In this document: positions 1,198-54,066 of the stretch, piece by piece
How the letters are laid out: each line of letters begins with the position of its first letter
Numbering within the stretch: position 1 is the stretch's first letter
NCBI GenBank assembly: GCA_039545355.1
Contig: BCJJ01000010.1
Location: 381,085-445,084, forward strand
Direction of reading: 5' to 3'
DNA: 64,000 nucleotides
Source: Trichosporon coremiiforme
Lineage: Eukaryota > Basidiomycota > Tremellomycetes > Trichosporonales > Trichosporonaceae
The notes under the pieces: generated by a model
Databases searched by the model: none
What the model was told of the DNA's origin: nothing
Seen by the model: the letters and a program-made list of their open reading frames with translations, nothing else
Translations under genes and position numbers: made by a program

Positions 1198-3526
1198 GTT
1201 TGACCCCCACTTTCGTCTTTTTGGTGCCACGAATCATATGCATAACACATAGCGCATGCGAGCCCCGCGTGCGGCGAGCGGCGAGGGCGCGCGGTGAGGG
1301 ACGCCGCTTGCCAGACACGGCCACACGTTCCCACACACAGCCTACGAATTACAGTACAGTGATTGGCGGAAATGGCCGGTGATACATGGCCCGTCAGGCC
1401 GAAGGCCTGGACTAAAGAGTGCTTGATGAGTGACAATCAAGTGATCCGCACAGCAGACGTGGCGGGCGGCATCGCGTCCGACATCGGCACATGCGCACAT
1501 CGGCCAGGACACTCGCGGCAAACAGCGTGTGTAACGTAAGCAGCCATGCGGCTGGCCTCTGTCGAATGAGAGTGAGTAGGCGGTCGCCCAAATGCGACCC
1601 GAGTGTTCGTGTCCGTGAAGTCCCGTTCGGCAGTCAATCCAAATTGCATGGGATTCCAAATGCACAACGAGTGGGTAGGTACGGGCGTACAATGATGGGG
1701 GGGGGGTGATGCCGAGGCGGAGTACCTCGGAGTACCTTTAGCCTCTGGCGCTGATGGGGGGAGATCTGCCTATTCTCAACTGATTTCAACCGATGTTAAT
1801 TGAGGAGGGACGCGAGTCGACGTGAGTGAATGGCATCCGAGTGGGTGCAGTGAGAGGGTTTGCATTGTTATGCAGATCTACTTCATTAAACGACTGAGGT
1901 GGGCCGAGACGGAGACCGAAGAGGGCGGAGGTGATCTGCGCCGGGTTGTCGGTCCGTGGGCCGCTTCGGACCGTTCTGCGCTCTTGACGATCGGGAGCGG
2001 AGGGCAGATCCGCTTTGGTCCGCCCTCTTACGCGTCGTCGATGTCATTCTACTACCCTACACTCTGCAAGCCATCAACGACGTCGCATGTGGACACTGTT
2101 CATGAGGAAGTGCATGAGGGAGTGGAAGATGTCAGGGTGTAATTCCGGGACGGAGAGTCCGTCTGCAACAGAAGAGAGGAGCTCTGCTAGCTCTTGAGGC
2201 ACCGGACAGCGGCACAAGCGTTGTAGGGGGCGTACATAGGTGGAATCACCGCTGTGCCGAAGATGAACCTCGCGAAAGTTCGCTTAGAGATATCGTTGCC
2301 GCCGGGTGGCCCACGGGGTGGCACCGGATGATCCAAGACCCCTTGCTCTCGTGGGATGTGGGGGTTCGCTATGTTCTCGCTGGTTAGTCGCTACATAAAC
2401 CTCTCTGTCGATGTCTTGTCTCAGAATTCAGCACAGGGGACAGAGTGGGAGCCCGGCGAATGAGTTTCACCCGTAGCTTGAGCTCGGTCATCCACGCGTT
2501 TGACTTCATATAACAAACCCGACACGCGCGACACGACGTCATCGGCACTGTCGGGCTTGCGAGCCGGTTCCGGGCGTCGGGTGGGGGAGGCAAGTCTTCA
2601 CCGTTGACGATTGATCGACGTGCCCCACTCGGCAACGCCACTATGATACAAGTCCGTCGCGATCGTACCCAGTTGCCAGCGGCTGGCGTGGCGGATCGAC
2701 ATGCGCGCCATCATCATTGAGCTCAGGCGCTGGCATTTCGCCGGCCAAGAGCGGTCAGCAGTCTCAACCGATGAGCCGGCCCTCGCCGCTGTATCACTGC
2801 ATTACCGCCTTGCCGGTGGACAGCTGGACCGAGCCTCTGTCCTCGGCATGAAGATGGCGGCCCCACCCCGTCTCATCGAATACACGACACACATCCCCAC
2901 CCGGCCCCGCGAGCTGCGCGACGTCCGCAGCCGTCCCGCGTGTATCTGGCCCCGCATCACGTCCTCAAAACGGGCAGAATAAGCTCGAGCGTGATCGTCG
3001 ATCATTGCCTGTTTCTCGGACTCTGCGACGTACAACGTGCGGAAGCGTGGAACGAGGGGACGGTGTCAAATACTCCCACTGCTCCACATTCGGTCGTGTA
3101 GGACCTCTCGGCGTGTATCGGCACTCGAGCTCGTCTACTCTCTCCCCCCATCCAACACCCTGTCCGAGTTAGCTGGGCATGGCGTGATTCTGGCCTTGAG
3201 AGATCACCGGTCCATAGAGGCCGAGGACTAGGCCGAGAGTGGGGAACGGGGAAACGCGGCGCTCGGCCCGCATCCCCATTAGACTCATTGAGTCGCGGTG
3301 AGCACCGCGCATCGCCAAAAGGTGTCGTACGCGCTCGGTCTGTTCTCGGTCTCAATGTGCCAAGTGAGGGGAGTTTGCATCCGACGTCGCTCTTTCAGCA
3401 TCCGCAACAGATCTACAATGGGGGATGCTGGACGTCAGGTCATCTCTTCAGCTGAGATCAGCTTCGAGCTTCACGGCCACTAGCTGACCACGGTACAGCG
3501 CTCTCTCTTGATCCCTGTCCCACTCA
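1198..3526. other. Intergenic region, nothing recognised
   Basis: About 2.3 kb with only short, unrelated ORFs. A poly-G tract (11 G, around 1696) and a short GTACCTCGGAGTACC inverted repeat (around 1722) are visible. No gene, tRNA or repeat array that I can support. Confidence 0.4.
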
Positions 3527-5285
3527 TCACGAGGCGGCGAGGGGCTGCGGGTCAGCTTTCGACTCGGAACCGACAGCTGGCTTACAGACGTCCATGGGCC
3601 GTTTGTCAGTTTAAGTGCCATAAAGTGCGACTGACGCCAGATGATCTGGATGGGGCCCGGGCTGGATGCCAGTTTACCCCAAGAACTGCAAAACTGACCG
3701 GCCATTTGCCAGTGATGGACGGAGGTCAGCTATCGATTGGTGTACCAGCGGGACTTCGAGCCTGCTCGTCAGCTCAGGCAGCACAATCCCCAGCTGACCT
3801 GCAGGCTGTGATCTCCTCAAAGCGTGGCCTGGAGGTCAGTTAATTGTACCGACTGCAGAACTGACTTGCACGACTCCAAGGCTGCGGGTCAGCCATCGAC
3901 TGGTGTTTCACAGCTGACCTTTCGGTTCGTCAGCTGGAGCACAACAATGCAGCTTACCGTCGTTCTCGCTGGCCACTTGACACCTGTCTGTCAGCTTTGC
4001 TTGTCGTGGACCGCTAGCCTCTTCCCTCATTTGCTACAACTTCCCGTGAGGACAGAGGGAGTACGGAGGGCGCTGTGAGGACTGTGGGTCAGTTCCGAGG
4101 ATGCCTCCGACAACTGACTTTGCGAGTGTTGAGGTGTGATACTGCACGTCAGCTCTACAGCATGCCCAAGAGCTGCTCACACCACAGTGGCTTTTTGTCA
4201 GTGACTTTCCGCACGTCGGATCTGACTCTGCCTTCCCTACTCCCTACTTCCACTTCGAGCAGCTCCGGCCGACGTGCGTGGGGACTGGGGATCAGTTCCT
4301 ATCATGGCTCGTACAACTGACATTACCGTGGGCCTGTTGGAGTGGAGCTTCTCGTCGGCCCTTTCACGCTCCCAGAGCCTTCCTGGTCATAAAGTCTATC
4401 AGCCAGCTTGTGTGCCGTGTTCTTTAGCTGACCTCTGCCTTCCTCTCGGTAGCCCCGGCAGTTGTGGCGACTGGGGGTCAATTCTCGCTGTAGCTACTGC
4501 AACTGACATGTGCGATGGGAGTGAAGTTGGAATGCTGCTCGTCAGCTCTATCAGTTTGTCGGAGGTATGGTCGGCGATTGAGATGAGCTCACCGTGTCGC
4601 ACCTGCCGGTCAGCTTCGCGAACAAGGGCAGCTAGCTGGGCTCACCAGCATTGCGCCAAGTGGCTCGCATATCGCGGAAAGGGATTTGAATGTCAGCTGG
4701 TATCTCTTCGACCTGGCCCGCCGTCGGTTGCGCTTGCTGAATGCCAGCTGCAGGTCAGCTTGCTGCGGGTTGTGCACAACTGACAGTTAACGCCGTTGTT
4801 CACAGCGATCCATAGCCCGTAAACTGCTGTCCAGTCATTTCCCAGTAGAACTACTGATTGTCGGCTGCAAGTTCGCTTTGCAGCAAAGCTAGTCCCCTCC
4901 CTGTTGAAGGTCCTTCCATGACTTCATCTAACTGCTAGTCAGTTCCGCATAGAGCTTCCAAACTGATCTTCCCGCTGCTGCGGGACGCGTCCCGTACCCT
5001 ATCTCTTCAAGGTGTCAGGTAAGTGCCGCTGTCGAGGCGGCTGTCTGTCAGCTTATTGCGATGTTCATCTCCAGCTAACCTTAACTTCCTCCGACAGCTG
5101 GCCCATGACAGTAAGGCAGGGCTGCGGGTCAGTTCAACTTCTTATGCACAACTGACCTGTCTTCCAAACAAGAGGCGATCTACGAACCGTTCGGGACGCC
5201 AACCGACATGCCAACCCTTTGAAAACTTAGCAGACATCGTCCTCACAGCAGTACTTGTCTTGGCGATTGAAGCCCGGAGAAGTTT
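3527..5285 (-). CDS. Unrecognised intron-dense microexon gene (3' part well supported)
   Basis: No long ORF exists here, but the minus strand carries a dense series of GT...CTNAC...AG introns. Splicing them joins these exons: 4646..4747, 4593..4602, 4508..4534, 4433..4470, 4327..4382, 4227..4284, 4181..4190, 4119..4141, 4041..4081, 3958..3983, 3866..3881, 3799..3828, 3699..3761, 3586..3661, 3527..3544. Their sum is 594 nt, exactly 198 codons, open through 14 junctions and ending in TGA at 3527. Further upstream exons 5157..5285 (129 nt) and 5080..5121 (42 nt) are also open in one frame. The part 4785..5040 is unresolved: it holds another 37-nt unit (4932..4968) with a GA start and I could not keep the frame open. 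The 5' end is not defined. The product is basic and I do not recognise a family. Some splice choices (GTTGTA at 4040, GTAATG at 4326, AAG acceptor at 4191) were made to avoid stop codons, so the model needs RNA evidence. It lies downstream of the SUR7-like gene on the same strand. Confidence 0.5.
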
Positions 5286-5611
5286 CTGAGGTTAGCTATT
5301 GCAGATGCCTTGCAGCTCACAGTCAATATTATGGGTGAAATGTCGGCTGGTGGGTACTCTGTCTTTTCACTGCTCTGCGAGGCTGGTTAGTGCAAGGATG
5401 GTTTCCGGCATCAGCCTTGAGCAGGTACTGGATGGTCCAAGTAAGTTGGTTTCGGACTACATCAACTTACACCACGGCGTGAGGACGCTTTGAGCTCCTG
5501 ATTCAAGCCGTCAGCGGTTGAAGTTTGCTTCCCCACCGAAAACCGGAAAGCGAGCGTTATCGAACTTCTTCGTGCATTCTCCGTCGTTCTCGTTCTGTTC
5601 ACTACACTACT

Positions 5612-5648
5612 CTGACAGTCAGCTGGGACTACCTTCTTGACAACTCAC
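5612..5648 (-). other. Isolated 37-nt intron-like unit between microexon gene and SUR7-like gene
   Basis: Minus strand reads GTGAGTTG at the start, a CAGCTGAC branch and TCAG end, exactly 37 nt, the modal length of the introns in the neighbouring microexon gene. It sits 51 bp after the stop codon of the SUR7-like gene, so it is either a 3' UTR intron of that gene or a 5' intron of the microexon gene. Other candidate introns on the same strand before the first supported exon are 5428..5470 (GTAAGTTG with branch CAACTTAC) and 5286..5320 (GTGAGC, CTAAC, CTCAG). Confidence 0.45.
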
Positions 5649-11396: not shown

Positions 11397-12931
11397 ATGT
11401 CGGCCACGAAACGCCTACAGACGATTCAGTCGCATCTCTCCACCGCCCCTGCCTCCGGCTCCGGCTCCGGCACCACGAAGCCCGAGATCAAGGTCGTCGC
11501 CGTATACGGCGCGGGCCTCATGGGCGCGGGCATTGCGCAGGTCGCGGCGTTCGCGGGCTACGACGTGCGCCTCTGGGACGTGAACGACAAAGCGCTGGAG
11601 TGAGCTTGAATATCGTGTTTGAGCTGACAAAGCAGGAAGGGCCTCGCCATTATCCGCAAGTCCTCCGAGCGCATTGCGAAGCACATCGCGCCCGAGGGCA
11701 CGGACACGGCACCCATTATCGACGGTATCGTCAAGGCGATTAAGACGACGACTGACCGGTGAGCCTGCTTCATTCCTTCTTAACCATTCTCCTTAGGCGA
11801 GGGAGGCACGCTCCAGCTGGGCGAAAGTGAATATGAGCTGATCCCAGCGCCGAGGCTGTCAAGGACGCCGACCTCGTCATTGAGGCGATCATCGAGGACC
11901 TGGCCATCAAGCAAGACTTCTTCAAGTACCTCGACACGGTTGCCAAGTGAGCTTTAATTGCGTTTCGCTAGCTGACCGCAGGCCGTCGTGCATCTTTACG
12001 TCGAACACGAGCGGTCTCCTCATCAAGGAGATCAACGCGAAGTGCCCCGCCGAGCGTAAGAAGCGTTTCGGTGGTCTGCACTTCTTCAATCGTGAGTCAG
12101 CTCGAGTGGAGGGCGCAGTCCTTCTCCTTCCGAGGGTTTGCGCCTTCTTTCATTCTCACGCTTGCGCCCGACTTGAATCCCCCTTCATCAGCCCTGCTGA
12201 GAGGAGGGCTCCAGCCCAAAGGATGATGGCAGACAGCTTGCCCACAGTAGTTCTCAGCTGACACTCAGCTGTCCCCGTGATGCGCCTCGTCGAGGTCATC
12301 CGCACGGAAGACACACTGCCCGAGGTAGATGACGCGCTGTTCGCGTTCGGCAAGTCGCTCAAGAAGAAGCCGATCCGCGCCAAGGACACGCCCGGATTCA
12401 TCGTGAACCGTCTCCTGATGCCGCTGAATCGCGAGGCGATCCGCATGGTCGAGCGCGGCGACGCTACGTTCCAGGACGTCGACACGGCGATGAAGCTGGG
12501 TGCCGGGCACCCTATGGGCGTGAGTACGACCAGGTCTTGAGGTCTCCTGCAGGGAGACCGACAGTTGAGCGTCAATCGGCGAACCACTCCACCAGTGGTG
12601 CATTGTCGGAACGCACAGCTGAAAGACCTTGGAAAAGATGCAAGCTAACAAACAGCCGTTCGAACTATTCGACTACGTCGGTCTCGGTAAGTTCCACCTT
12701 CTCTCCACCTCCCGCAGCTTCCTGCCATTCGAAGCCTAGCTAATGACAGACACAAACCTCCTCGTCGGCAAGGGCTGGGTTCAGCGCGCTGAGCAGGGCT
12801 ACATCCCCAAAGCCTACGTCGAGCCGCAGGGCAATCTGATCCAGGACCTCGTGGCGCAGGGCAAGCTTGGTCGCAAGTCGGGTGAGGGCTTCTACAAGTA
12901 TGAGCAGAAGGGAAAGAAGTCTCTCACTTAG
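11397..12931 (+). CDS. 3-hydroxybutyryl/3-hydroxyacyl-CoA dehydrogenase
   Basis: Seven exons: 11397..11599, 11636..11758, 11848..11946, 11982..12091, 12269..12519, 12656..12686, 12750..12931; 332 residues. The N-terminal Rossmann fold has [11 protein letters not shown] (from residue 38), the NAD-binding GxGxxG. The catalytic His lies in HFFNPVPVM (about residue 175), spanning the junction of exons 4 and 5. The C-terminal helical domain has [13 protein letters not shown] and [15 protein letters not shown], both family signatures. It oxidises 3-hydroxyacyl-CoA with NAD+ in beta-oxidation or butanoate metabolism. The Ser/Thr-rich N-terminus with two basic residues could be a mitochondrial leader; no C-terminal SKL is present. 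Exon 6 is only 31 nt. Introns are 35-177 nt. Confidence 0.9.
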
Positions 12932-13897: not shown

Positions 13898-14152
13898 TGC
13901 ACTTGCGTGTTGACCTTTGGAGACAATGTGTTGAGGCACTGGACCATTGTTGGCGCTGTTCATCACTGACCGCGCGAAACATGGCTGCTCCATTGTGTCT
14001 GCTTGTCAACCATTCAGAGCGATGCACTTGCCTGTGGCGCCGAACACTGCCAGATATTTTGGGCACTGCAAGCGTCAAAATGCATACTGAAGAGAGAGAG
14101 ATATAACAGCCGCTCACTAGTATTCAGCAACCACTCACCACACCTACCCACC

Positions 14153-15061
14153 ATGACCAGCCACGGCAGTCCACGGAGCGCGTACGGCTTCCCCGCCGGC
14201 GTCAAAGTCTTCAAGGGTGTCGACCAGAGCTATACGGCTCTTGAGTTCCTGTCGCTTATACACGCGAATGAACGTGAGCTACCCGGCCCGCCACAGGCAT
14301 ATCACATCGCGAACTACCTGGGCGCGCGGGCGCTGTTGTGGTTTGCAGCAGCCCATTCCGAGGACAGCTACGACGGACCGCAGTCTGCACTGCTCCAGTC
14401 TTTCTCCCTCGACTGGTCCGCAGGCCTGAGCAGAGAGCGGCAGTTCCGACTCCTGCAACAGGGTTTCGGCACCGTAGACCAGTACGCTGCCGAGTTTGAG
14501 CACCTCGCGAACTCGTGCGCCGAGGACGTCAACGCCGAGTACAACCTGCGGTGGTTTGCCTGGGGCTTGCGAAGGGAGGTGAGGGAGCTCGTGTTCACCG
14601 AGCCTTATGCTTTCATGAGCTTTGACAGTCTCGTTGCCGTCGCTGAAGACGCGGCGGTGTCACTTCATCTCGAGTCACGAGCACGCCCGCGCGTCCGTGA
14701 GAGCGCGGGAAACCCCCTCCGTCGCCGATACACGAAGAGCATGCGCAAGGCGAAGGAGATCTTCTTCGTTCTGAGGCGCAGCCCCAACCTCTCTAAGACT
14801 CCGCAGGGTGCGGACGACGTCTGTTTCTCCTTCCAGTCCGTTAGCGAGCCCAGCCTCGACAAGAGATCGATACCGTCACCTGGGAGACCGCCCTCGACCC
14901 GCGGCCGCCTCAGGAGCTTCACGTCTCACCCCGAGATTGTGTCAGACTTTGGCATGATGGGCGCTAGGCGCACTCCTGATGTGCCCGCCGACGCGGTCCC
15001 GGGCGGCTCCAGCGGATCAGCGGGGAGCCCGGCCACGAGCAGCGCCGGAAAGCCGCCCTGA
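14153..15061 (+). CDS. Gag-capsid-like protein (array member 2)
   Basis: Intronless, 302 residues from the ATG at 14153 (preceded by CTACCCACC; the frame is open further upstream from 14003 but that part does not match relatives). The retrotransposon-gag-like core spans about residues 10-190: F-KGV...ALEFLSLI, NYLGARALLWFAA, FRLLQQGFGTVDQYAAEFEHLA, EDVNAEYNLRWFAWGLRREVREL, then a helix with SLVAVAEDA. The C-terminal 110 residues are basic and Ser/Pro-rich, where retroviral-type Gag would have a nucleocapsid; no CCHC knuckle is present. Such domains form capsid-like shells in LTR retrotransposons; whether this one assembles is unknown. Confidence 0.65.
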   Translation: MTSHGSPRSAYGFPAGVKVFKGVDQSYTALEFLSLIHANERELPGPPQAYHIANYLGARALLWFAAAHSEDSYDGPQSALLQSFSLDWSAGLSRERQFRLLQQGFGTVDQYAAEFEHLANSCAEDVNAEYNLRWFAWGLRREVRELVFTEPYAFMSFDSLVAVAEDAAVSLHLESRARPRVRESAGNPLRRRYTKSMRKAKEIFFVLRRSPNLSKTPQGADDVCFSFQSVSEPSLDKRSIPSPGRPPSTRGRLRSFTSHPEIVSDFGMMGARRTPDVPADAVPGGSSGSAGSPATSSAGKPP

Positions 15062-15250
15062 AACCCTCTTAGTCCGTAGTCATCGTAGACAAGAGTATGC
15101 CCACCCAACACGAGCTCCAAGTATCAGTCGCCGTCACTGTGGCCCTCGGAGCATACCTTCGGAGCAAACCCACAGAAGGCGTTGTTGTCAGACAGGTGGG
15201 CAAGCGGTTGCGCCCCCTGGACTTGAGATCCGGTGGATCTGTTAGTTATA

Positions 15251-15873
15251 ATGTCTTCGTCGCGCGCCATGGCAGTGGCGAGCCCGTCCCTTCCCACCCT
15301 TTCCCTTGTCACCCACTCCATCATGGTCGGTACTCCTCGCGCTGCTCCCCACATGGTACACCTCTTCTCCGGCGCCTACACCTATCCGGTGGAGGAGTTT
15401 CTCGCCGTCGCCGACGCGTGCATGGCTGAAGCGCCCGGCTACTACTGCACGCCCGAGCGTAAGCGGGCGTACGTCGTTGCCGCTCTCGCTGGTCGTGCTC
15501 GTCTCTGGTTTACGAACTGGGCGAAGCACCACCTTTCGGCAAGTTACGAGGAGTTCCGTTCGGCCTTGCTCGACGAGTTCCACATCGACGACACGCCAAG
15601 CGAGCAGCAAAAGTTCCGCCACTTGACGCAAGGTATCTCGACTGTTGCCTGTTACGTGCGCGAGTTCGAGAGCACCGCCGGCCGCAGCAAGGAAGACGTC
15701 GAGGCGCAGTACAACCGCCTCCGCTTCGCGTACGGGTCAACCACCCCATCAGCGGCCACGTTCTCGAGCGCTTCGCTTTCTGCCCCACGTTTAAGGATCT
15801 CGCTAAGGAGACCAACCGAGTTGAGGAACACTTGAAGACCCTCAACGCGAACGGCAACGGGCACGGGATGTAG
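15251..15873 (+). pseudogene. Gag-capsid-like ORF with C-terminal frameshift (array member 3)
   Basis: The frame opened at ATG 15251 (an inner ATG at 15323 is possible) encodes the family core: HLFSGAYTYPVEEFLAVAD, VVAALAGRARLWFTNWA, FRHLTQGISTVACYVREFE, EDVEAQYNRLRFAYG. Right after FAYG, where relatives have the GLR/GLN continuation, the frame shifts near 15735 and runs into unrelated Ser-rich residues, stopping at 15835. A neighbouring frame carries the expected continuation (helix with TFKDLAKETNRVEEHL) to a TAG at 15871. This is what a single-base deletion would produce. A sequencing error, or programmed frameshifting as in some Gag-Pol junctions, cannot be excluded, but no pol follows. 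Confidence 0.6.
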
Positions 15874-16600
15874 CAAGGTCAGTCGAGTTCGTCACTTTTC
15901 CCCTCTCAGCGCGGGCGTAGTCAGCCCGTTTGCCGTAGTCTTAGGGTGTGAGATCTCTTACGAAGCTGCCATTGTATATAGAGGATATGCAAGATGCAAT
16001 CTCGTCTTTTCACGATGCACGTTCATGTTGTCAATGCTTGGCGGCGGAGCTCCAAAACGCCCCGTTTAAATCGAGGGTGCTATGGTTCGTGTCGTCCCAA
16101 GTGACAGGCGAGGTATACCGACCTCTCTGCTTTCACCCCTTGGCGTCGCCAGCCGTGTCTGCACCGTCTGACATCCCTTCCACTAACTTGCGAATCGCAG
16201 CGTGTGTTAGAAGCGTCGTGCACGCCGTGACCGAAGGCGCGAGGCGTTCCAGGCACAATTTGCTCGGTTCAATGGCCTCAAGAGAGATAACGGACATCGG
16301 CGAATTTCGCGTTTGCATCCTCCCAGAGACATCCTGAACACGTTCTGCGGGCCTGAGCCTTAGACACGCCGTCTTGGTAATGTCTCGGTGGGCCGCGGCG
16401 TGGACCAACCCTGTCCGCGAGAAAGGCATCAGGCTGGGCCAAGAGTGCGCAACAATAGAGGGATGTGAGCGGAACATCCTATCATGAATGACGGGTCCGA
16501 GACCTCCCGCCGTCAGTGGTGGTATATGACAGGCGCCTGCGCCGACGCGTCACTTTTCGCCCCCTCACCCTACGACCTACATTGTCAACAACTACTAATC
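15874..16600. other. Spacer between Gag-like members 3 and 4
   Basis: About 730 bp without a supported gene; no long terminal repeats or primer-binding site could be seen on either side of the Gag-like ORFs. Confidence 0.35.
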
Positions 16601-17404
16601 ATGGAACCAGTCGAACAGCCCGCGCCTGCACTGGCGCAGCTCTTCAGCGGCGACTTCTCCTTCCCCGTGGATGAGTTCCTCGTCCTCGTTGAGACCAACA
16701 CGCTCCCGCACAAGTGCTACTACGCGCACACGCCACACAAGACGGCGTACGTAGCCAATGCTCTCACCGGGAGGGCGCGACTATGGTACGTGCGCTGGGC
16801 CGGTGAGCGGGAGCACAAGGCGCCCATATACAATGAGAAAGGGCAGAGTTTGAGTTTCCAGTCGGCCTGGAAGGCGTACAAGGACAAGTACTACGAGACG
16901 TTCCGCCGCGACCTCGTCGCGCAGTTCGGGATTCCGGAGTTCATCACGCCGGCCTTTGCGCTCCGCCATCTTACGCAGAACCGCCTCCCGGTGCAGCAGT
17001 ATGTCGACCGATGGACTGAGCTCGCCAACGCGTGTCTCGAGAACCTCGACAGCGAGTACAACAGATACTGGTTCATCTATGGACTCAGGAAGGAGATCAG
17101 AGACCACATGCTCGAGGTGTTTCCCTTCTTCAGAACTTTCGCCAAGATCGTGGACGAGGCGAAGGCGATGGAGAAACACCTCCAGCCCAAGCTCGTCGAG
17201 CGCGTCGTCGAACGCATCACCGTGCAGCAGGTGCCGGCTCCACCTACACCCGCTACATCAGTGCCGGCCACGCCAGAAGTCGCGACCTCTCCTGTTGCCC
17301 CGCTTGCTCCGTGTGCGCCATCAATTCCAGCGACACCCGGCCCCCCGGCGGCAGACGCGCCCGCGCCGCCTCCGTCCACAGACGAGATCGCCGTTGCGCA
17401 GTAG
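16601..17404 (+). CDS. Gag-capsid-like protein (array member 4)
   Basis: Intronless, 267 residues from the ATG at 16601. This is the clearest family member: LFSGDFSFPVDEFLVLVE, YVANALTGRARLWYVRWA, FALRHLTQNRLPVQQYVDRW, LENLDSEYNRYWFIYGLRKEIRDHM and a closing helix FAKIVDEAKAMEKHL. The last 70 residues are almost only Pro, Ala, Thr, Val and Ser, a flexible tail. No protease, reverse transcriptase or zinc knuckle. A 20-residue lysine-rich insertion (about residues 72-95) follows the GRARLWY helix. The leader directly before the ATG is CA-rich with no TATA box. Confidence 0.7.
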   Translation: MEPVEQPAPALAQLFSGDFSFPVDEFLVLVETNTLPHKCYYAHTPHKTAYVANALTGRARLWYVRWAGEREHKAPIYNEKGQSLSFQSAWKAYKDKYYETFRRDLVAQFGIPEFITPAFALRHLTQNRLPVQQYVDRWTELANACLENLDSEYNRYWFIYGLRKEIRDHMLEVFPFFRTFAKIVDEAKAMEKHLQPKLVERVVERITVQQVPAPPTPATSVPATPEVATSPVAPLAPCAPSIPATPGPPAADAPAPPPSTDEIAVAQ

Positions 17405-17642
17405 CAGTAGCCCGCTCTCAGTAGTTACCTACGCGGATGTTGTATAGTCCCCCGATCGTGCTTTGATGCCCTTTGAAACGGCTGCTGACCGCTTGATGTC
17501 CGTCGCCTGATGTCAGCAATCTATTGTGACGCGTTTGGAAGTGGCTGCCGACGCGGGGCGCGAGCCCCCACATCATCCCCCGTACTTATCACCAGCTCAC
17601 CACACGCAGTGTCCCTCTTCCCCGATCGCTCACCCCGTAACC

Positions 17643-18611
17643 ATGTTCGCCAACGTCCCATTGAAGGTTCCAGTCCCCTACCGCTCCCCGACCTCCCCGC
17701 CAACGAGGCTCCGGCTCCGCTTCTCAGGCGACCTTTCGCTCGACGTCGCGACCTTCCTCCGCGTAGCCGAAGCCGACATGACACGCTACCCGTTCTACTT
17801 CAGCTACGCCCTGCTGCGAATCCTCTTCCTCCGTCTGTCGTGTCAAGGTCGGGGTGCGCTCTGGGTCGACCGCTTCCTTGCGGCGCGCACTCTGCCTGTG
17901 TCGTTGAAGTCGCCCCTCCCCAGCGAGAAAATTGCAGAGTGGATCGCCGCAAACGACGCGGCCTGGACTGCCTTTTGTGAAGACATGATCGACTTCTTCA
18001 AAGACGGCACGCAGGCACAGATGAGAAGAATGGAGCAGACCGGAAGCGTGGCGCATTATGCTCAGAGGTGGAAACAGGCGGCGGACGGGGCGGGCGTAAT
18101 GGTGGATACGCACTTCAATTGCCGATGGTTCATCTGGGGCCTCAAGTCTGCCATCAGAGCCAGGTTCTCAGAGACTGATTGGTCCACGCCTAGTCTCGAG
18201 CATGTCGTCGCTGTCGCACAGCGTGCCGAGCGCGAGTTGAACCGCTCCCAGCGGCCGAACACGTTCCATGCCAGCCCATCGAGGTGGCGGAGCCGCGTGA
18301 GCAGCGAGCCGGCGTTGAGAGGCCTGCCGTCGCCTATTCCCGAGATGGACGCGGGTTCTGGATGGGAAGGCGTGGGTGAAGGGACCGGGAGGCGGAGAAG
18401 AGCGACAGACATCACGCACCGCCTCCGATCGAATGAGAGCGCGCAGTGGACACCTCTGCGGCCTACGAGGGGGACGTCGCCAGCGTTCAATGAGGTGCAG
18501 AATGAGCTGCTTGCGTCTCCTCAGGCGAACGCGATAGCGGTGGTGGGGCAGGAGCAGGGAGATCTCCCAGACGACGGATCGCGCAGGGAATCGCACTGCC
18601 GCCCTATGTAG
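17643..18611 (+). CDS. Gag-capsid-like protein (array member 5)
   Basis: Intronless, 322 residues from the ATG at 17643. Core motifs: LRFSGDLSLDVATFLRVAEAD, CQGRGALWVDRFLA, GSVAHYAQRWKQAADG, THFNCRWFIWGLKSAIRARF, then LEHVVAVAQRAEREL. The C-terminal 100 residues are basic and Gly/Arg/Ser-rich. Compared with member 4, there is an insertion of about 25 residues after the GALW helix. All array members share orientation, single-exon structure and a hydrophilic, unrelated C-terminal tail, which suggests selection on the core and free drift of the tail. Confidence 0.65.
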   Translation: MFANVPLKVPVPYRSPTSPPTRLRLRFSGDLSLDVATFLRVAEADMTRYPFYFSYALLRILFLRLSCQGRGALWVDRFLAARTLPVSLKSPLPSEKIAEWIAANDAAWTAFCEDMIDFFKDGTQAQMRRMEQTGSVAHYAQRWKQAADGAGVMVDTHFNCRWFIWGLKSAIRARFSETDWSTPSLEHVVAVAQRAERELNRSQRPNTFHASPSRWRSRVSSEPALRGLPSPIPEMDAGSGWEGVGEGTGRRRRATDITHRLRSNESAQWTPLRPTRGTSPAFNEVQNELLASPQANAIAVVGQEQGDLPDDGSRRESHCRPM

Positions 18612-18836
18612 ACGAGTATGCAGCCTTGCAGAATCTTGAGCGTCGACAGCTTTTGTGTCGCTTCCCACAGCGCACTCCCTGTTGTGAGCTGAGTCCTCGT
18701 CGCTTCGTTCACATCACTACCCCTGCTGTCCATCATTCCCTCATTTCACTTCCCACCCCACCCTCATTCGCCTTTCATCCTCCATCTCTCCATCTCTTTT
18801 ACCTCCTTTTGACTGCGACAACTACACGACGGCACC

Positions 18837-19442
18837 ATGGCGCCGCTCAACCTCCTCCCCGCTGTGCCGCTGCAGCACCCCTTCAGCGGCTCGTTCTCGT
18901 ACCCGGCCGAGGACTTTCTCGCTTTAGCGGAAGCAAACATGAAGCCGCATCCCACGTTCTTCAACGCCGACGATAGGCGCCGGATCATCTACTGTGTGAA
19001 CGCGTTCACGGGCCGCGCGCGCCTGTGGTACTTTGAGTGGGTGCGGCGCAAGTCCGGCGACCACCAGCGCCCCACAGACTGGTATTCCGTCTTCAAAGAA
19101 GATTTCCTCGAGCAGTTCTGCATCCCCAAGATCAAGACTCACGACTGGCTCCTGCGCCAGCTCGTGCATGAGACCAGCGTGGCGAGCTACGCCGAAATGT
19201 TCCGCAAGACGGCGCTCGCGTGTCGCGAGGATGTTGAAAGCCAGTATAACCGCCTCTGGTGGGTTTACGGGTTGAGGGGTCCCCTGCAGGCCAAGATCCT
19301 CGATGTCTTCCCGCTCCTCGACACTTATGCGGAGCTCGTCGAGGCTGCGGCCGACCATGAGCGGTTCATGCTTGCTGGTGGCGATGCGCCGCGCACTGGC
19401 CGCAACGGAAGCCTGCCCGTCATAACAACGTCGCAACACTAG
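18837..19442 (+). CDS. Gag-capsid-like protein (array member 6)
   Basis: Intronless, 201 residues from the ATG at 18837, the shortest intact member. PFSGSFSYPAEDFLALAEANM, CVNAFTGRARLWYFEWV, LLRQLVHETSVASYAEMFRKTALA, EDVESQYNRLWWVYGLRGPL and a final helix YAELVEAAADHERFM; only about 25 residues follow, so this ORF is close to a bare capsid-like core. Upstream, 100 bp of CT-rich sequence look like a fungal leader. Confidence 0.68.
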   Translation: MAPLNLLPAVPLQHPFSGSFSYPAEDFLALAEANMKPHPTFFNADDRRRIIYCVNAFTGRARLWYFEWVRRKSGDHQRPTDWYSVFKEDFLEQFCIPKIKTHDWLLRQLVHETSVASYAEMFRKTALACREDVESQYNRLWWVYGLRGPLQAKILDVFPLLDTYAELVEAAADHERFMLAGGDAPRTGRNGSLPVITTSQH

Positions 19443-34023: not shown

Positions 34024-34344
34024 GAGTGTTGGCGGTGAGCGATGCGCTGGAGGATAGAGGAGCGGCATCTTTATCCTACACCAGCACTGTCCCTAATTTC
34101 CATTGAACTCGGAGCACAGGACTTCGATGCCACATCAACACAAGCGCATTACCACGCGAAACCCTCTTCTCCACGACGACAATGGTTGAGTCCACAAAAC
34201 TCGCAAGTGTGCGCCCTTCAACGTCTGCGTCGTCATCGCACACCTGCTTTGTGTGAGTCGTTCCCACCGCCCTTCTCCCTTTCACCCACCCCTTCCATCG
34301 TCATTGTCGTCCACTCTTCCCATCTCAACGTTACCCACTCCTCA

Positions 34345-35027
34345 ATGACAATGCCGCACACCCACTCGCTCACACTCCCCTCCCCTCTCTCGCTCCCTGC
34401 AGCAGAAGCCTTCTCCGGCGACGCTTCCTACCCAGTCGAGCAATTCCTCGTGATCCTGGACGCTACGTGGCCCCTGCTGCCTTTACCCGCTGACGAGCCG
34501 CGTCTCTCAGCCGCCAAGATCGCCTACCTGGTTCAACACCTGCGCGGCCGCGCCCAACTCTGGTTCGCCGAGCATCTCCACCGCCACGCGTCGGGGATGC
34601 ACGGCGCGCACACATATGCCCAACTCCGTGCGCATATGCTGCAAGTCTTTGGGAGCGAACTGCCCCTCCGCGCACCCCGCCGCGCGAGCACAATGGGCCC
34701 GGACGAGAAGGAGGGCGAGCAGGAGAACCGCCAGAAAATCGTCGATCGTATGCGTGCCGAGCAGGTGTTTGCTAGGATGGTCCAGAAAGAGGATGTCAAG
34801 GGGTATGCGGAAGAATATGAGGAGAAGAGCAAGGGTTGTGGACACAACATTGACCTCGATGATGAGTTTGAGTGTCTCTGGTTCGCTCATGGTCTCCGCT
34901 CGGCTATCCGTGATGAGGTCTCCGCTCGGCTATCCGTGATGAGGTCTTCCGTGTCTTCCAACCCGGCATGAAGTTCAGGGATGTTGTGAAGGAGGCGGAG
35001 AGGGCGGAGGCCGAACAGCAGTGTTAG
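34345..35027 (+). pseudogene. Gag-capsid-like ORF disrupted by a 26-bp tandem duplication
   Basis: Intronless frame from ATG 34345 (or 34351): AEAFSGDASYPVEQFLVILD, LVQHLRGRAQLWFAEHL, EDVKGYAEEYEEKSKG, DEFECLWFAHGLRSAIRDEV, as in the array at 13-19 kb. Immediately after AIRDEV, a 26-bp segment (34893..34918) is repeated perfectly (34919..34944). Since 26 is not a multiple of three, the frame is lost and a stop comes at 34971. The frame that follows the second copy carries a family-like terminal helix (FRDVVKEAERAEAEQQC) to a TAG at 35025. The event looks recent because the copies are identical. Confidence 0.65.
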
Positions 35028-35082: not shown

Positions 35083-36534
35083 TTACTTCTTCATCTTGCC
35101 GTCCTTGATGTCCTTGTCCTCCTGCAGCATCTTGACCACGCCCTCTCCAGGAATGATGTGCTTCGGCCACGTCTCGCGTACGAGCCTCTCCGTTGCATCC
35201 GCAATCATGGGCCAGGAGAACCCAATGCCGGGCCAGAACTTGATCGGCGTGCGCGCGAAGACATACTCGCAATGCGTGCCTCCGGGGACCTGTTTGTCAG
35301 CTGCAGCGTCATTGCCCCTGAAGCTCACCTCGAGGACGTCGACGTCCAGTCCCTGGTCACGCACGATGCCGACCGTCGCGGCGATCTCGTCGTGCAGCTT
35401 CTCGTCCTCGCCGTAGTCAACATGCATCTTGACGCCCTTCTCTGACAGGCGGGCGAAGTGCCTGTCGCTCCTCGGCGCGAAGGCGGGCGACATGAGCGGA
35501 TCGCGCTGAGCGGGGTAGGAGTAGTGCCGCGAGAAGGAAGGCTGAATCACGAGTGAAGTAGTGCCGAGCCAGTCCTGAGGGTTACTCGACGGCCAGTACA
35601 TAACTCACCTTGTGCGCGTTGCGGGAGATGCTAGGGAAGGAGCCGGTCACGTCGCACCATGGCGCGCTCGCGAAGACCGCACCGGGAAGACCGAGACGCT
35701 TGAAGCCTTGGTGGTCCAGCTGCTCCAGGTATCGCGTCAGCGAGAGGCAGCCGTGGCCGCCTGCCGAAGCACCCCAGAGCATGATGTTCTATCTATCAGC
35801 TCTCGTCGGGTTCATCGTAGCTCACCTGAGGCTCGAAGCCGAGCTCCGTCACCATATAGTCCCACGCGGCGAGATAGTCGAGCATCGGGCCGGGCCACGC
35901 CGAGTCGTCGCTGAGGCACTTGCGGTAATTCGCATCTGCAATCAGCTTAAAGCCACCATTCCATCAGCTCACGGAAGATACGAAGACCAAGTCGAGTGGC
36001 AAGCTCCCAGGTGACGAACCACTGCAAGGGCTGGCCCATCTGGTAACCTCCGCCGATGATGTAGAAGATTGCCTTCTCGCTCGGCTTCGCTTTTGCCCAG
36101 ATCTTCTCATCGGGCGTGCCCTTCGGTGCAATCATGAACCCCGGCCTCGGCTCGGGCTTCACGACTCCACGGCCCACGATGACCTTGACACTGGGCAGAA
36201 GCGGGATGTCCGGGCTCGTGGGCGGGATGGTCCTGACCTCGCCGATCTCAGCGAGGTGCCGGTGGTGCTTGGCGAGCTTGGGAACCTTCCATTCCTCGGG
36301 GTCGCGGCGCGTAACGCATCCGAGCGTCAGGAGAGACTGCAGCATTCGGAGCGTGTTGGTCATGAGGTGTCGGAGGAAGCCGTGCTTCGGTTTATAGTAG
36401 AAGTAGGAGAGCGAGTTGAATGTGAGCATCGTCGGCAGGCCGACGCATAGGATCGGCGGGACAACGACGAGCTGCATCAGCCGGAACACTGGCGTCGGCG
36501 GCTCCAGTAGCCGCCAAGGTGTCAGCGGCCACAT
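35083..36534 (-). CDS. Alpha/beta-hydrolase, steryl acetyl hydrolase/lipase-like
   Basis: Five exons: 35973..36534, 35826..35935, 35609..35788, 35329..35574, 35083..35289; 434 residues. A hydrophobic N-terminal segment (residues 20-50, VVVPPILCVGLPTML) suggests membrane anchoring. The oxyanion-hole motif is AIFYIIGGGYQMG (HGG-like), the nucleophile elbow WGASAGGHG (GxSxG) and the likely catalytic His lies in VPGGTHCEYVF. These features fit the HSL-like ER-anchored deacetylase/lipase group (yeast Say1 type) that removes acetyl groups from sterols. The fourth intron (35290..35328, 39 nt) is a multiple of three and stop-free, so retaining it would insert 13 residues just before the catalytic His region. 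Confidence 0.75.
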
Positions 36535-36906: not shown

Positions 36907-39333
36907 GAGATATTGATTGCTGACAGCGATCTCCCACGATGGCTCATGAGCCTCGCTGGAAAACCTGCGGGGCTCCACATTTAGCCCAGCACCCGACGAG
37001 GAGGAGAGGTTTGTCAATGAGTTCTGCGTTCCGCGGTCCCGACTTGACTTCGAAAGCTACGCTGCACCTAGAGACAGCGGCTGGGTGCTCAGTCAAACTA
37101 GTATGAGCTAGTCAGGATCTACCTAGCGCAACGCGGACCATCTGGCTAGTCGGGTTAGTGCAGTCGGCAGAGCTCCAAGTCGCGGCCGATGCCGAAACCA
37201 GCCTTGGGATTGTGTTCTGGGCGGCCAGCACTCATGGTAACCATGAGCCGCCTCTTCAACTGGGCAGCTGGCGGCTTATCTTATCCAGTTTGACTCTGAA
37301 TAGTCTCTGAACCGCGAGATCCTGTTCGCTAGAAAGCTTAAGCCCTCTCCTCCACATGCGTTCTACCATAAGCCGCCCCATTAACTGCAAAGTGCTGGCG
37401 GGAGGTGCGATATCGGAAGTCGAGCCCGGAGCAAACGAGTTCTCGAGTACGCAGGGCTCGGTCGGAAGTCGAACAACAGGACTGACTGTTTCTTCCCTCG
37501 TAACACTGACAATGTTCGGAACCCAGACGACCGTTGGCTGTACCGATCTCGCAGTCGCCGCCTCCACTGACACGTATTACTTTGCCGGCATCATCGGAAG
37601 TTGTGCCGAGACACAATGTCCAGCTCGCATCATGGGAGCCCACAGTTCTGATCATGGCCAGCTTTCGTAACGAGCAGACTCAATCGGAGACGTGGGTCTG
37701 AAGAGCAAGGTTTGAGACTCACACGGTACCGCATGCTGCCCCACTTTCTTCCCGATCTCACCTCCGCTTTGTATGGACACTGGAAGCTCCCGGACTTGGA
37801 GGAGTGGGCCGGGTATGCTTATCGGCTGCAGGCCCATGGAGAGATATGTTGACGCAGTCGCTGCGCCGCAATGAGCCCATGCCGGTTGCCCCGTGTCATC
37901 CTCTGCGGCCCATTTATCCGGAGCGCTGATGTGGCTGACCTCAGCCAGCGCAATGGTGCAAGCCATGGATGCAAGGAGAGCATTTCAGTGGAGGACACTG
38001 CGGCGTCGAGCTGCGCCCGGTCCGAGATACGGCCCAAAGGAGATGGCAGCTCCGACCGCCAGGCGCTAGCGACGGCATACAGATCATTGCCGTGCCTATG
38101 TTTGGTATCGTGCGCAGCGACCTAACCATTAGTCGGTGGGCTGGAGCTCGTCCGCAGGCCCGCAGCTGTGCAACATGTGAGATACCGCGTACTTGCCGCT
38201 GGACAGCCGACGTGGCCGGCGCTAGACATCCCGCTGACTAGGAAAGCTTCCAGAAGAGTGAATCGAGTCGGTTGTTCTTTGCGGATCGTAAAATGCGGAC
38301 CTCAGCGGTGACGAGGTGGCTGAAGCAGCAGTGCAAGCGCACTGTGCGGAGCGGGCGAGTGGGTTGTTGCATGTTAGCGTTCGTTAGCGCAGCCGAGTGT
38401 GACTGCGATTCTCGCGGAGATGCGGGTCGATCGTGTGAGGTCATGCCCCATAAGCGCTCAAACAGTGGAGCTCCTCAGGATCCTCAATTGGGCTCCCCAT
38501 GGAACAGGGCAAAGACGGTCCGCAGTACCCCGAGTCTGCACACGTGTTGCGGGAACATGCATGCCCCGCATTGCATTTCCTGCACATGTTTCCATTGATG
38601 CATCATGGACCGCCGTGGGGCTCTTGAGCATGCGGTGCAGGGGACGTACGTAGGCTGCGGGATGCTGGAGGCTGAGGGGGGTGCTCTTCCCTCCGGTCCG
38701 CTCGCCGGTATCCTTACGCCGGCTCGCACTCCGAAGACAGCTGTGCATGATGTCAACGGCGTGAAACACGCGGTTGCGCCGGGGTACAATAGCGAAGAAC
38801 AGTTTAGCAGGTGGGGGTTCACTTCTTAGTCTCGCGCTAGCGTCGGCACAACCACATGCGTGTCGGCAGCAGGGCAGCCGGCAGCGCAGTAGTCAGGCAT
38901 GCAAAACCCACGACAATCGAGCAGATGCTTGCCGAACACGGCACTTCGATGCCCGACTAGTGACTTTAGCATGGTATTCCTTTCCTTCCATGCCGGCGGC
39001 GGCGGCGCCGTCTCAGGCATGTGCTCACGCTTAGCTCGGCTGTGCTCGCTTCCATTCGGGCAAATCCCCGCTGCGGGTAAAGCACCCACGAGGGCGATCG
39101 GAACGTCAAGCACACACATGCAGTACTATTCACAGACACGCGCGCAACACTGTCCCAACCCATGAGAGTACCGGCAATGCTTAGTGCGTCCGAAGCGTCA
39201 GCTGATGGCCTGCATGCTCGCGGGGATCGACTGGGTTGGTTGCGGCCTGTTGCGGCACTGACTCGAGACGTTGGTGCGAGGCTAGGTGCGGCTTTGGCGA
39301 ACGAAGCGCCGCAGCAGCTCGTCGCGGAAGAGA
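36907..39333. other. Gene-poor region, nothing supported
   Basis: About 2.4 kb of short overlapping ORFs on all frames with no recognisable domain, consistent splice structure or RNA gene. A CTGGCTAGTCGGGTTAGTGC stretch near 37142 looks faintly tRNA-like but does not fold. Confidence 0.4.
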
Positions 39334-39339
39334 TATAAG
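39334..39339 (+). promoter_or_regulatory. TATA box of CFEM gene
   Basis: TATAAG 88 bp upstream of the ATG at 39427, followed by a CA-rich leader. Confidence 0.5.
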
Positions 39340-39426
39340 CAGCTGGTCTCGAGATCAAGAAGTACCATCAACCACAAGCTCTTCTCTCCACTACCACCAC
39401 AACCACAAACCAAACCAACAACCACA

Positions 39427-39961
39427 ATGAAGGCTGTCTTCGCTCTTGCTGCTATCGCTGCCGCCGCTGGCGTCTCTGCCCAGGTCGAGTGAGTAGACGT
39501 CTATCACACGCACCTACCCTCTCTCTTGCACACACCCCGAGTGTCTACACCACTTCTACTTGCTTCATCTCCACCACTACGGCTGCCCGCATCGTCTTCG
39601 AGGTCGAATTCGGTGACAACCCCTATCTCGGCTTTCATCGCCTTCCTCGTTCCTGTGCCTGTCTCATCGCCCATCACCACCCCATGTTCCCTCCCTCCTT
39701 CCACAACATCAACTAACCCTCAGCGCCTCCCAGATCAACGGCTGCGTCAAGGACTGTGTCTTCCAGACCGCCAAGAACGTTGGCTGCTACAACGAGGCCG
39801 ACCCGACCGGCTCAGTCAACTGCATTTGCGGCGACAAGCGCGGCGACTTCACTGGCCAGGCTGCCGGCTGCATCTCGGGCGGCTGCGCTGACCAGCTCGC
39901 GGGCGCCCCCGCCCTGCTCGACCAGCTCTGCAACGAGGGCCTCAAGGACGGCCACTGGTAA
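39427..39961 (+). CDS. Small secreted CFEM-domain protein
   Basis: Two exons, 39427..39488 and 39724..39961 (intron 235 nt, GTGAGT, branch CTAAC, CTCAG); 99 residues. An N-terminal signal peptide (MKAVFALAAIAAAAGVSA, cleavage likely after Ala18) is followed by eight cysteines in CFEM spacing: GCVKDC, GCY, CIC, GCISGGC, LC. CFEM proteins are secreted or GPI-anchored; some bind haem for iron uptake. An Asp that could ligand haem precedes the third/fourth Cys region (NEADPTGSVNC) but position is not exact. No GPI signal is seen, so the product is probably soluble. A ferric reductase is the next gene, 4.3 kb away. Confidence 0.82.
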
Positions 39962-42900: not shown

Positions 42901-44192
42901 ATCGACCGAGACGGTGCCGAGATAGCCTAAACGGCAGTCGGCCGAAAACTTGAGAGTCTGGCTGAACGGCCCAATTTAGCACGCGAGGCAGGGAGTAAGG
43001 TTGTCGGTCGTGCCTGGCGCGTGTTCGAGTATCGGTGGATTACCACTCCCTTCCCTGGGGGCTAGCAGGCCACTCTTGAACCACTGGCGCGCTGGTCGGG
43101 AAGCACCCACGTCCGCGTACAGAGAAAGTGACTCGTAGAGCTTCAAGGCACTCCAGGCACTGAGGGCGTGCACGCTGCACCCCCCGATTCCTAGCGGCAT
43201 GTCATCATTTTCTGGAGGGACGCGTCAATTTTTAGCACGCTCGAACGAGCACCCCTGCATGGCGCTCACCCGACCCTCATCACCACTCAACAACCATCGC
43301 ACCTGAACACACGTGAGGGTCACACGCCTGCATCACTTGTCAGAGAGTCCAATGTTAGGTGTGAGAGCCATGACACATCCCAGCCTCCGTCGGGAGCTCG
43401 TGGTCGAAGAGGGCTCCAAGTGTACTCATTCTGGGAAGCGGCAGTTTACAGCAGACAAGCGCACCACCCCGAATCTATCAGAGCTCTAGACCACAGATCT
43501 TGCTCGCTTCCGCTGCGCCGCTGCTGAGCTTTCATCGCAGCAGAGGGCGTTGCGTCGCTAGAGCGCAGTAACGAGCCAGGCACGAAACAACGCGCGTGCA
43601 TGAAGCCGATTTCAGGGTGGCATTCCACCGAAACGCAGACCGAAATTACGGTTCGTTCAATCAGCAATGTAGCAGGGCCGGAGGATATTATTGGCTAAAT
43701 CGTGGCGGTTATGATGAATTTCGCCCGAAAATATGATGGACGCTCGTCTGCGCTGCGTTGAAAGCCGCCGAAGCGTCGTAAAGTTTGTGCGACCTCCCTG
43801 AACACCGTTTCTGTGCATCCCTGATGCCAGGATCGCAGGGATCACAGGACCACAGGGTCGTGACAAGCTTTGGCTTCTGACCTAAAACCTGGCTTCCAAT
43901 GCTACTCCTGCGCGGTGAGTTGCGCGACGGCTGCCCCGAATCACTCCTCAAACGAGGGGAGGGAGCAGCGGCGTTGGAGCAGATGCAAGTAGCCGACAGC
44001 ATGGGCAGGAGGCAGGAGAGTCCTGCAAACTTGAACCGAACGAGTGGGTGCCCAGTCCAGGTCCTCGAATGTTGCCGATGGGGGGCCAACCCGAGGGGAG
44101 GATTTCATTTGCTCCAGTGAGTCTCGTCTGCGGCTTCGTGCCCCGATCGACCTACGACCTCTAACCTCTAGCGCACTAGTCTGACAGCGGCA
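39962..44192. other. 4.2-kb gene-poor region
   Basis: No ORF above 130 aa and none with a family signature; no tRNA. Short GGTGACGCC triplications occur near 42341. I see nothing else that can be supported. Confidence 0.4.
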
Positions 44193-44198
44193 TATAAG
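44193..44198 (+). promoter_or_regulatory. TATA box of ferric reductase gene
   Basis: TATAAG 64 bp before the ATG at 44262. Confidence 0.45.
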
Positions 44199-44261
44199 AA
44201 CAGCAGGGTCAGCGTTTATCAGATATCCCCCAACTCGACACACCACTCTACTCCTCTCACG

Positions 44262-53744: not shown

Positions 53745-53916
53745 GAGAACCTGTTGAAGAAGCCCGGTATCAACTGGTAAAGAGATCACTGTCCGATCGG
53801 TCGATCGCTCAGACGAGACGGACAGATGGATGCGTATGGATAGGATTACGACGGACGGCGGGCCCTGGAGCGTTGCGTCTTGTGGACCATGTACATGTCG
53901 AACAGCTGAGGGATCT

Positions 53917-54066
53917 ACTGACTGCACTGGCAACTGGCGACTGACGACTGACGACTGACGACTGGCAACTGACGACTGATGACTGACGACTGATGACTGA
54001 CGACTGATGACTGACGACTGATGACTGACGACTGATGACTGACGACTGATGACTGACAATTGGCGA
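53917..54066. repeat. 7-bp tandem repeat, GACTGAC/GACTGAT
   Basis: About 20 copies of a heptamer. The central part alternates GACTGAT and GACTGAC, making a 14-bp higher-order unit; ends are degenerate (GGCAACT, GGCGACT). It lies about 140 bp after the paralogue b gene. Confidence 0.85.

Follow-up and report, generated by a model that had tools for sequence, protein, structure and literature searches.

On the minus strand of positions 3452-5648 of the window, the 64,000-nt stretch of DNA analyzed here (contig C10, 381085-445084, of a 42.0 Mb assembly in 134 contigs), short intron-like units follow one another closely, and many begin with a donor largely complementary to their own branch site. 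The original prediction read these units either as a burst of small inverted-repeat introns or as a hairpin-dependent splicing class. Much of the description is borne out by the letters: the lengths of all 11 units given with full coordinates match, the seven-base donor/branch complementarity of the units at 4082, 3829, 5122 and 3762 is perfect, and the unit at 5428 spans 43 nt with GTAAGTTG and CAACTTAC. GTCAG starts likewise are present in many units, but not at 5612-5648, which begins GTGAGTT. The 16 scored units between 3452 and 5320 amount to 8.6 units per kb with a median exon of 74 nt; here and in other arrays, the strand of palindromic units was assigned after neighboring units. Similar unit interiors had been taken to suggest copying, and a likeness is visible near 3716-3740, but the 16 scored loops are no more alike than shuffled ones, the observed best match being reached in 57 of 200 shuffles.

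Table 1. Candidate units of the array and two ordinary short introns of the window
Feature	Position	Strand	Length (nt)	Donor	Branch	Acceptor	Remark
Intron-dense array	3452..5648	-					no evidence of coding; 16 scored units between 3452 and 5320, plus one at 5612-5648
Candidate unit	5612..5648	-	37	GTGAGTT	AGCTGAC	CAG	canonical donor, U.G at +6:-1
Candidate unit	5428..5470	-	43	GTAAGTT	AACTTAC	CAG	full complementarity via another base choice
Candidate unit	5286..5320	-	35	GTGAGCT	AGCTAAC	CAG	
Candidate unit	5122..5156	-	35	GTCAGTT	AACTGAC	CAG	7/7 complementary
Candidate unit	5041..5079	-	39	GTTAGCT	AGCTGAC	CAG	
Candidate unit	4748..4784	-	37	GTCAGTT	AGCTGAC	CAG	
Candidate unit	4603..4645	-	43	GTGAGCC	AGCTGAC	CAG	
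Candidate unit	4471..4507	-	37	GTCAGTT	AATTGAC	CAG	
Candidate unit	4396..4432	-	37	GTCAGCT	AGCTGGC	TAG	weak
Candidate unit	4285..4321	-	37	GTCAGTT	AACTGAT	CAG	
Candidate unit	4142..4180	-	39	GTGAGCA	AGCTGAC	CAG	
Candidate unit	4082..4118	-	37	GTCAGTT	AACTGAC	CAG	7/7 complementary
Candidate unit	3882..3918	-	37	GTCAGCT	GGCTGAC	CAG	
Candidate unit	3829..3865	-	37	GTCAGTT	AACTGAC	CAG	7/7 complementary
Candidate unit	3762..3798	-	37	GTCAGCT	AGCTGAC	CAG	7/7 complementary; + strand reading at 3768-3804 too
Candidate unit	3662..3698	-	37	GTCAGTT	AACTGGC	CAG	
Candidate unit	3545..3585	-	41	GTAAGCC	AGCTGAC	CAG	
Candidate unit	3452..3488	-	37	GTCAGCT	AGCTGAT	CAG	
Ordinary short intron	11600..11635	+					same class; homeolog on contig C9 with stem mostly kept (one change at -2), other loop
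Ordinary short intron	35290..35328	-					same class; homeolog with one change at +7

A genome-wide class of 37-nt introns

The genome-wide scan called for in the original prediction, with GTCAGYT-N14-20-RRCTGAC-N2-5-CAG, gave 133 matches (64 + 69) in 126 distinct places, seven of them palindromic and matched on both strands, against 1 + 0 for the reversed pattern, and the pattern therefore is not due to chance. When the CAG is dropped and the loop may be 10-30 nt long, the genome contains 201 + 202 matches versus 37 + 30 reversed; since 133 matches with CAG stand against 403 stem matches without it, a count in which palindromes enter twice and longer loops are allowed, the trailing CAG gives the direction. 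Otherwise equal strict patterns matched 133 times with GTCAG and 55 times with GTTAG (both with RRCTGAC) versus 4730 times with GTRAG (AGCTGAC or AACTGAC only).

Measured from an anchor of CTGAC plus YAG in 257,744 sampled bases, the bulk of them in loci picked for GTCAG, donors are most frequent 26 nt upstream of CTGAC, corresponding to 37-nt introns, for GTGAG (42), GTAAG (15) and GTCAG (27), and 37 nt also is the length mode of the 211 introns predicted in 100 genes coding for 150 residues or more. Neither the 37-nt length nor the near-complementarity thus is a trait of this locus: both occur genome-wide, and ordinary GTRAG introns have the same mode. The locus itself stands out only by a dense array of short introns, apparently non-coding and rich in GTCAG donors.

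The predicted introns form a short class of 34-42 nt (mode 37) with donor GTNAGYU, branch ARCURAC and the putative branch A at about nt 30, and a long class of >42 nt with GTRNGT donors and CTRAC branches, in which +6/-1 and +7/-2 (+6 and +7 counted in the donor, -1 and -2 upstream from the branch motif) appear independent. Short introns (n = 63) have C at +6 in 62% and T at +7 in 84% of cases, and long introns (n = 65) have T at +6 in 77% and are even at +7, such that the short class departs from the long-class donor consensus in the way that restores pairing.

GT...YAG ends and a CTRAC-type branch, as in U2-type introns, are present, in part by construction of the patterns, whereas the pattern definition has no part in the distance peak or in the near-zero reversed controls. 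Removal of the introns, with splicing inferred solely from reading frames, restores a conserved frame in Mnd1, Spo11, aldehyde dehydrogenase and others, though not in the window array. GTCAG introns lie in frame inside the Pfam domains of these three named proteins: residues 1-51 of Mnd1 match HTH profile positions 10-60 with no change in length across a GTCAG junction at codon 46, residues 111-170 of Spo11 match N domain profile positions 3-62 across junctions at codons 112 and 134, and the junction in aldehyde dehydrogenase is at codon 135. U12-type introns have RTATCCTT donors and TCCTTAAC branches; with GTNAGYT donors and ARCTRAC branches here, this type was rejected for the short class.

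Donor and branch covary in register

In GTRAG introns of the whole genome with 14-20 nt loops, position +6 of the donor and the base before the branch motif are C6/G in 2805, U6/A in 1415, U6/G in 357 and C6/A in 153 cases, where independence predicts 1977, 587, 1185 and 981, respectively (odds ratio 72.7), and the reversed controls are 0, 0, 1 and 0. These 4730 matches are free of the selection bias that affects the 20 loci, as well as L032 and L033, picked for GTCAG matches. The excess of U/G over C/A (357 versus 153) fits wobble pairing, and also the long-class preference for U6 and G-1.

Mutual information across 162 non-duplicate sampled introns peaks only at +6:-1 (z = 22) and +7:-2 (z = 5), with |z| <= 2 in the remaining 54 of 56 cells, and these two cells are the ones predicted by an antiparallel helix that continues the constant AG:CT pairs. 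Because +8:-3 gives no signal in the short class, the covarying helix is AGYU:ARCU. The covariation is detected in each of three loop-GC tertiles and therefore does not reflect regional composition, and it depends on spacing, with +6:-1 Watson-Crick pairs in 80-87% of introns in five bins of donor-to-CTGAC spacing from 23 to 29 and in 0-45%, chance-like levels, in six bins outside this range (8-33 candidates each). Among introns of predicted genes, 70 of 106 short introns are paired versus 56.3 expected (0 of 2000 permutations); no covariation was observed for long introns of the same gene set, with 24 of 84 paired versus 22.7 expected (807 of 2000 permutations). Two further signals are not explained by the helix: +8:-3 pairing in long introns with an exact branch (26 of 65 versus 16.8; 10 of 2000 permutations), and pairing at +10:-5 and +11:-6 in GTCAG candidates (26 and 28 of 70 versus 17.3 and 17.6; 23 and 9 of 2000). 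The proposed hairpin-dependent class thus survives in a wider form, as a pairing signal that links +6/+7 to the dinucleotide preceding CTRAC in ordinary GTRAG introns by the thousand, but not as a property specific to GTCAG.

Our best reading, to which we assign a probability of about 0.7, is that the spliceosome removes these ultrashort introns with the help of a helix of four base pairs between donor and branch. We infer that the pre-mRNA would form a short AGYU:ARCU helix closing a 14-20 nt loop, which would juxtapose the two signals as a single unit before the spliceosome binds or as it does so; the space in 37-nt introns may be too short for U1 and U2 to bind side by side as usual, and the snRNAs would then displace the helix. 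According to the available part of one source, the human A complex has a footprint of about 79-125 nt on RNA (PMC11913375), and introns with the branch A at about nt 30 therefore would be cramped. At least three of the four pairs are present in the minimum-energy folds of 103 of 156 GTRAG introns; permuting the donors lowers this number to 73, and shuffling the loops gives 110, suggesting that the stem is only marginally stable unaided; for GTCAG introns, the numbers are 66, 56 and 67 of 70.

More tentatively, with the odds somewhat against it, this fungal lineage may have evolved its own way of recognizing introns: an ultrashort intron would first be marked out as a folded unit by the helix between its donor and branch and the 14-20 nt loop, replacing side-by-side binding of U1 and U2, and the genome would also have fast-evolving non-coding transcripts of dozens of hairpin introns. 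Donor-branch covariation across the genome, bound to a sharp spacing rule, would offer a direct genetic test of how introns too short for side-by-side U1 and U2 are recognized; donor and branch consensus could then be shaped by each other, not by the snRNAs alone, with consequences for predicting splice sites in fungi with many introns.

Related structures are described in the available parts of several sources, in which pairing of intron ends is known from euglenids and diplonemids, and distance-shortening stems from budding yeast and diplomonads. Euglenid nonconventional and intermediate introns have CAG/CTG pairing between +4..+6 and -8..-6, which brings the ends together, much as the helix proposed here would, and the intermediates combine GT-AG ends with structure (PMC4770533); the class described here differs in being defined by GT-AG ends, in having the CTRAC branch itself as a partner, in its length, fixed near 37 nt, and in its fungal host. 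We rejected the euglenid nonconventional type, with variable non-canonical borders and no spliceosomal signals, given the GT-YAG ends and branch motif, and also the euglenid register, given that +6/+7 covary with the dinucleotide just ahead of the branch motif. Diplonemid introns also have strong end pairing, proposed to matter for removal, but with noncanonical splice sites and between 5´ and 3´ ends, not donor and branch (PMC12621601). The zipper stems of S. cerevisiae, such as that of RPS17B, draw donor and branch close, and efficiency correlates with this; those stems serve to bring the two signals together, whereas here, in an intron of 37 nt, the pairing is between the signals (PMC2536676). 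Internal pairing in diplomonad and parabasalid introns is linked to a fixed donor-acceptor distance, but with stems in longer introns and the signals forced unpaired in folding, whereas the short class here pairs through its signals (PMC6679479). The 3´-tailed mirtrons share a hairpin between 5´ splice site and branch point, but are RNAi precursors, in contrast to the stem of few pairs here (PMC4513878). Cryptococcus neoformans, another basidiomycete yeast rich in very short spliceosomal introns, is reported to splice introns of 40-60 nt most efficiently (PMC11913375, available part); the term "secondary structure" occurs 0 times in the main text of that paper on its ultrashort introns. In the titles and abstract openings searched, in which subscription literature is thinly covered, pairing of donor and branch with covariation is not described for ultrashort introns of fungi.

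Arrays and GTCAG donors

When spliced at its scored units, with introns under the scoring cut left in that would break a real frame, the window array has stops in every frame and a longest open stretch of 105 aa, compared to a shuffled mean of 109. An intron-aware frame search gave the array a score of 65.5, the best on that strand in the window (the next 2.7-kb piece scored 48.3), with a best-scoring frame that needs 10 introns for about 173 residues. With its open frame at the shuffled level upon splicing at the scored units, the array was rejected as a protein gene.

Fifteen clusters met the density cut, and only the Mnd1 cluster (L015; longest frame 128 aa, shuffled mean 96 and maximum 210) and the Spo11 cluster (L016; longest frame 153 aa, shuffled mean 90 and maximum 153) gave a recognizable protein. 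We take nine segments to be putative non-coding arrays (the window, L009, L010, L012, L013, two in L014, L032 and L033); they have 8.6-11.6 units per kb, median exons of 23-74 nt and open frames at the shuffled level. Four further clusters (L019, two in L022, and L026) showed no open frame at scored units. The +3 base of the 115 units in the nine segments is C in 41, T in 4 and A or G in 70, a GTCAG share inflated by locus choice, with C still far above T.

Since 39,723 bases of the window can be aligned to contig C9 at 67-91% identity, the genome has homeologous pieces, such as a hybrid or an ancient duplication would leave. At the homeologous C9 locus the window array is missing, with only two weak candidates on that strand. 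For L009/L010 and L012/L014, the flanks align at 80-89% (one L009/L010 piece at 69%) and the arrays do not, among the alignments listed. From about 5924 in L012 and about 5992 in L014, the array stops abruptly at a strongly conserved stretch common to the homeologs. The arrays, the window region included, thus may be fast-evolving non-coding transcripts rich in short introns. Stalled spliceosomes direct silencing in Cryptococcus, and we would only guess that the arrays are tied to a process of this kind.

Could the array units be something other than introns, such as binding sites or hairpins of another function that look like introns by accident? The lack of an open frame upon splicing at the scored units and the readability of some units on both strands would be expected in that case, but the units form one-strand runs with the length mode, branch-to-CAG spacing and donor classes of coding introns, and we regard this explanation as unlikely.

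The GTCAG donors do not define a group apart. Any GTRAG intron with a CTRAC branch has GT:AC and AG:CT complementarity built in, and adding the +6/+7 pairs leaves only +3 unmatched, such that a C at +3 makes a perfect heptamer. Selection on this pair would couple C3 to CTGAC and T3 to CTAAC, which the counts contradict: GTCAG is found with CTGAC 133 and with CTAAC 39 times, and GTTAG 55 and 15 times (odds ratio 0.93, with the C/T split of the CTAAC cells counted by eye in 54 listed matches, and with palindromes on both strands contributing 7 to the 133, 1 to the 15 and 9 once to each off-diagonal cell). With each place counted once, the odds ratio is about 1.0, indicating no association. We thus rejected GTCAG as a special perfect-hairpin class; since +3 does not covary with the branch purine, its perfect complement is mostly incidental, and GTCAG is a rarer donor of the same class with a non-consensus +3 base. 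Counted by eye in 79 + 54 listed matches, +6/-1 in the GTCAG class is U6/A in 65, U6/G in 14, C6/A in 3 and C6/G in 51.

Contrary to the claim that GTCAG is never used elsewhere in the window, there is one strict match, by pattern, at 51050-51087. In a further set of 18 loci, 28 strict matches are listed, with some places repeated via overlapping loci or both strands; 15 of them were called as introns within a predicted coding stretch, 2 sat unspliced in such a stretch and 11 fell elsewhere. The short coding stretches of L013, L014, L017, L018, L024 and L026 are not convincing genes. Among the 211 introns predicted for genes of the window and fetched loci, 13 have GTCAG donors, a share inflated by the choice of loci mostly for GTCAG. 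Such donors are used by 2 of 8 predicted introns in Mnd1 (L015 4225-5065, plus strand) and 3 of 11 in Spo11 (L016 4251-5858, plus strand). A tie of these odd donors to meiotic splicing is possible, with two genes only and loci chosen for GTCAG.

The helix covers bases bound by U1, U6 and U2 and could also hinder splicing. It thus could be inhibitory or regulatory, hiding donor and branch until a factor or condition opens it, with arrays and meiotic genes as regulated targets; its overlap with both signals and the recurrence of the non-consensus +3 donors in Mnd1, Spo11 and the apparently non-coding arrays (41 of 115) are in line with such a role. The 4730 strict GTRAG matches are too many for special regulation, however, and only two meiotic genes are involved, among loci mostly chosen for GTCAG, making this role unlikely.

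Introns common to homeologs

In 12 homeologous intron pairs, C6 is present on both sides in all 12, G at -1 in 11, A at -2 in 11 and T at +7 in 9, while the loops have changed; the differences are +7 T/C in three pairs, -1 G/A in one and -2 A/G in one, and no compensatory switch from C/G to U/A was found in the 12 pairs. For eight pairs, flanking exon identity is 0.81-0.94 and inner identity 0.41-0.57, under a filter (flank identity >0.7, inner <0.6; 11 of 15 kept, 8 of these 11 in the short class) that favors diverged loops; the other four, filtered for flanks only, have flanks matching at 20-29 of 30 bases. In the aligned homeologous stretches, which sample few introns, there is no gap resembling a whole intron and no clean insertion, the sole listed gap of 28-60 nt with a GT.AG or CTRAC motif being 33 nt long with GTAAG inside.

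These pairs bear on the idea that two ancestral intron lineages, C/G and U/A, exist side by side and that the association is a relic of descent with no present pairing. Just two combinations dominate, and no homeologous pair switches between them, as this idea would predict. Yet C6 and, for the most part, G-1 persist in introns whose loops are no longer recognizably related, the long-class consensus U6/G-1 is depleted (357 versus 1185 expected), and the association ends sharply outside spacings of 23-29, all of which render this history improbable.

A burst of an introner or transposon, whose tiny inverted-repeat copies would be the units and whose terminal repeat would be the complementarity, accounts for the fixed length, the dense arrays and the absence of the window array from the homeolog, and agrees with the strain-specific intron positions that the available part of PMC4524599 reports for Trichosporonales and that fit intron gain, but is highly improbable, as homeologous introns keep stems, not loops, the spacing-dependent covariation extends to ordinary coding introns, and aligned homeologous stretches have no whole-intron-like gap. 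Loop homology among the sampled units, which the inverted-repeat burst of the original prediction would entail, also is at shuffle level, only L033 of 15 clusters exceeding all shuffles, due to a tandem pair, and one L011/L018 set being the other exception; nor does C at +3 covary with the branch purine. This set consists of a GTCAG element with a similar loop, CATATGCAGACA, at L011 5905-5939 and 6085-6120 and at L018 4305 (minus strand), that is, in two homeologous loci and a tandem neighbor, outside any convincing CDS; most other units have unrelated loops.

We also noted other features of the window. Rfam models detected two tRNAs and nothing else, and the block at 37767-48718 is inverted relative to C9. 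The closest named relatives of the reductase encoded at 44827-46275 are from Cutaneotrichosporon, Apiotrichum and Vanrija (47-55% identity), with metagenome relatives at 86-95% identity, and the DNA most likely belongs to a yeast of the Trichosporonales. On the plus strand, related ORFs lie in a row at 14003-19442 and 34042-34971, as several similar tandem copies with a common motif like LFSGDFSYPVEEFL...RARLW...F, presumably reminiscent of retroelement gag-like proteins. Two similar predicted ORFs at 49728-50543 and 52929-53744 (plus strand), both with a SPAHSLQSSPPRSR segment, likely reflect a local duplication, and an ORF built from short VVSHQSSVISRQ-like repeats at 53915-54379 (minus strand) likely is a tandem DNA repeat.
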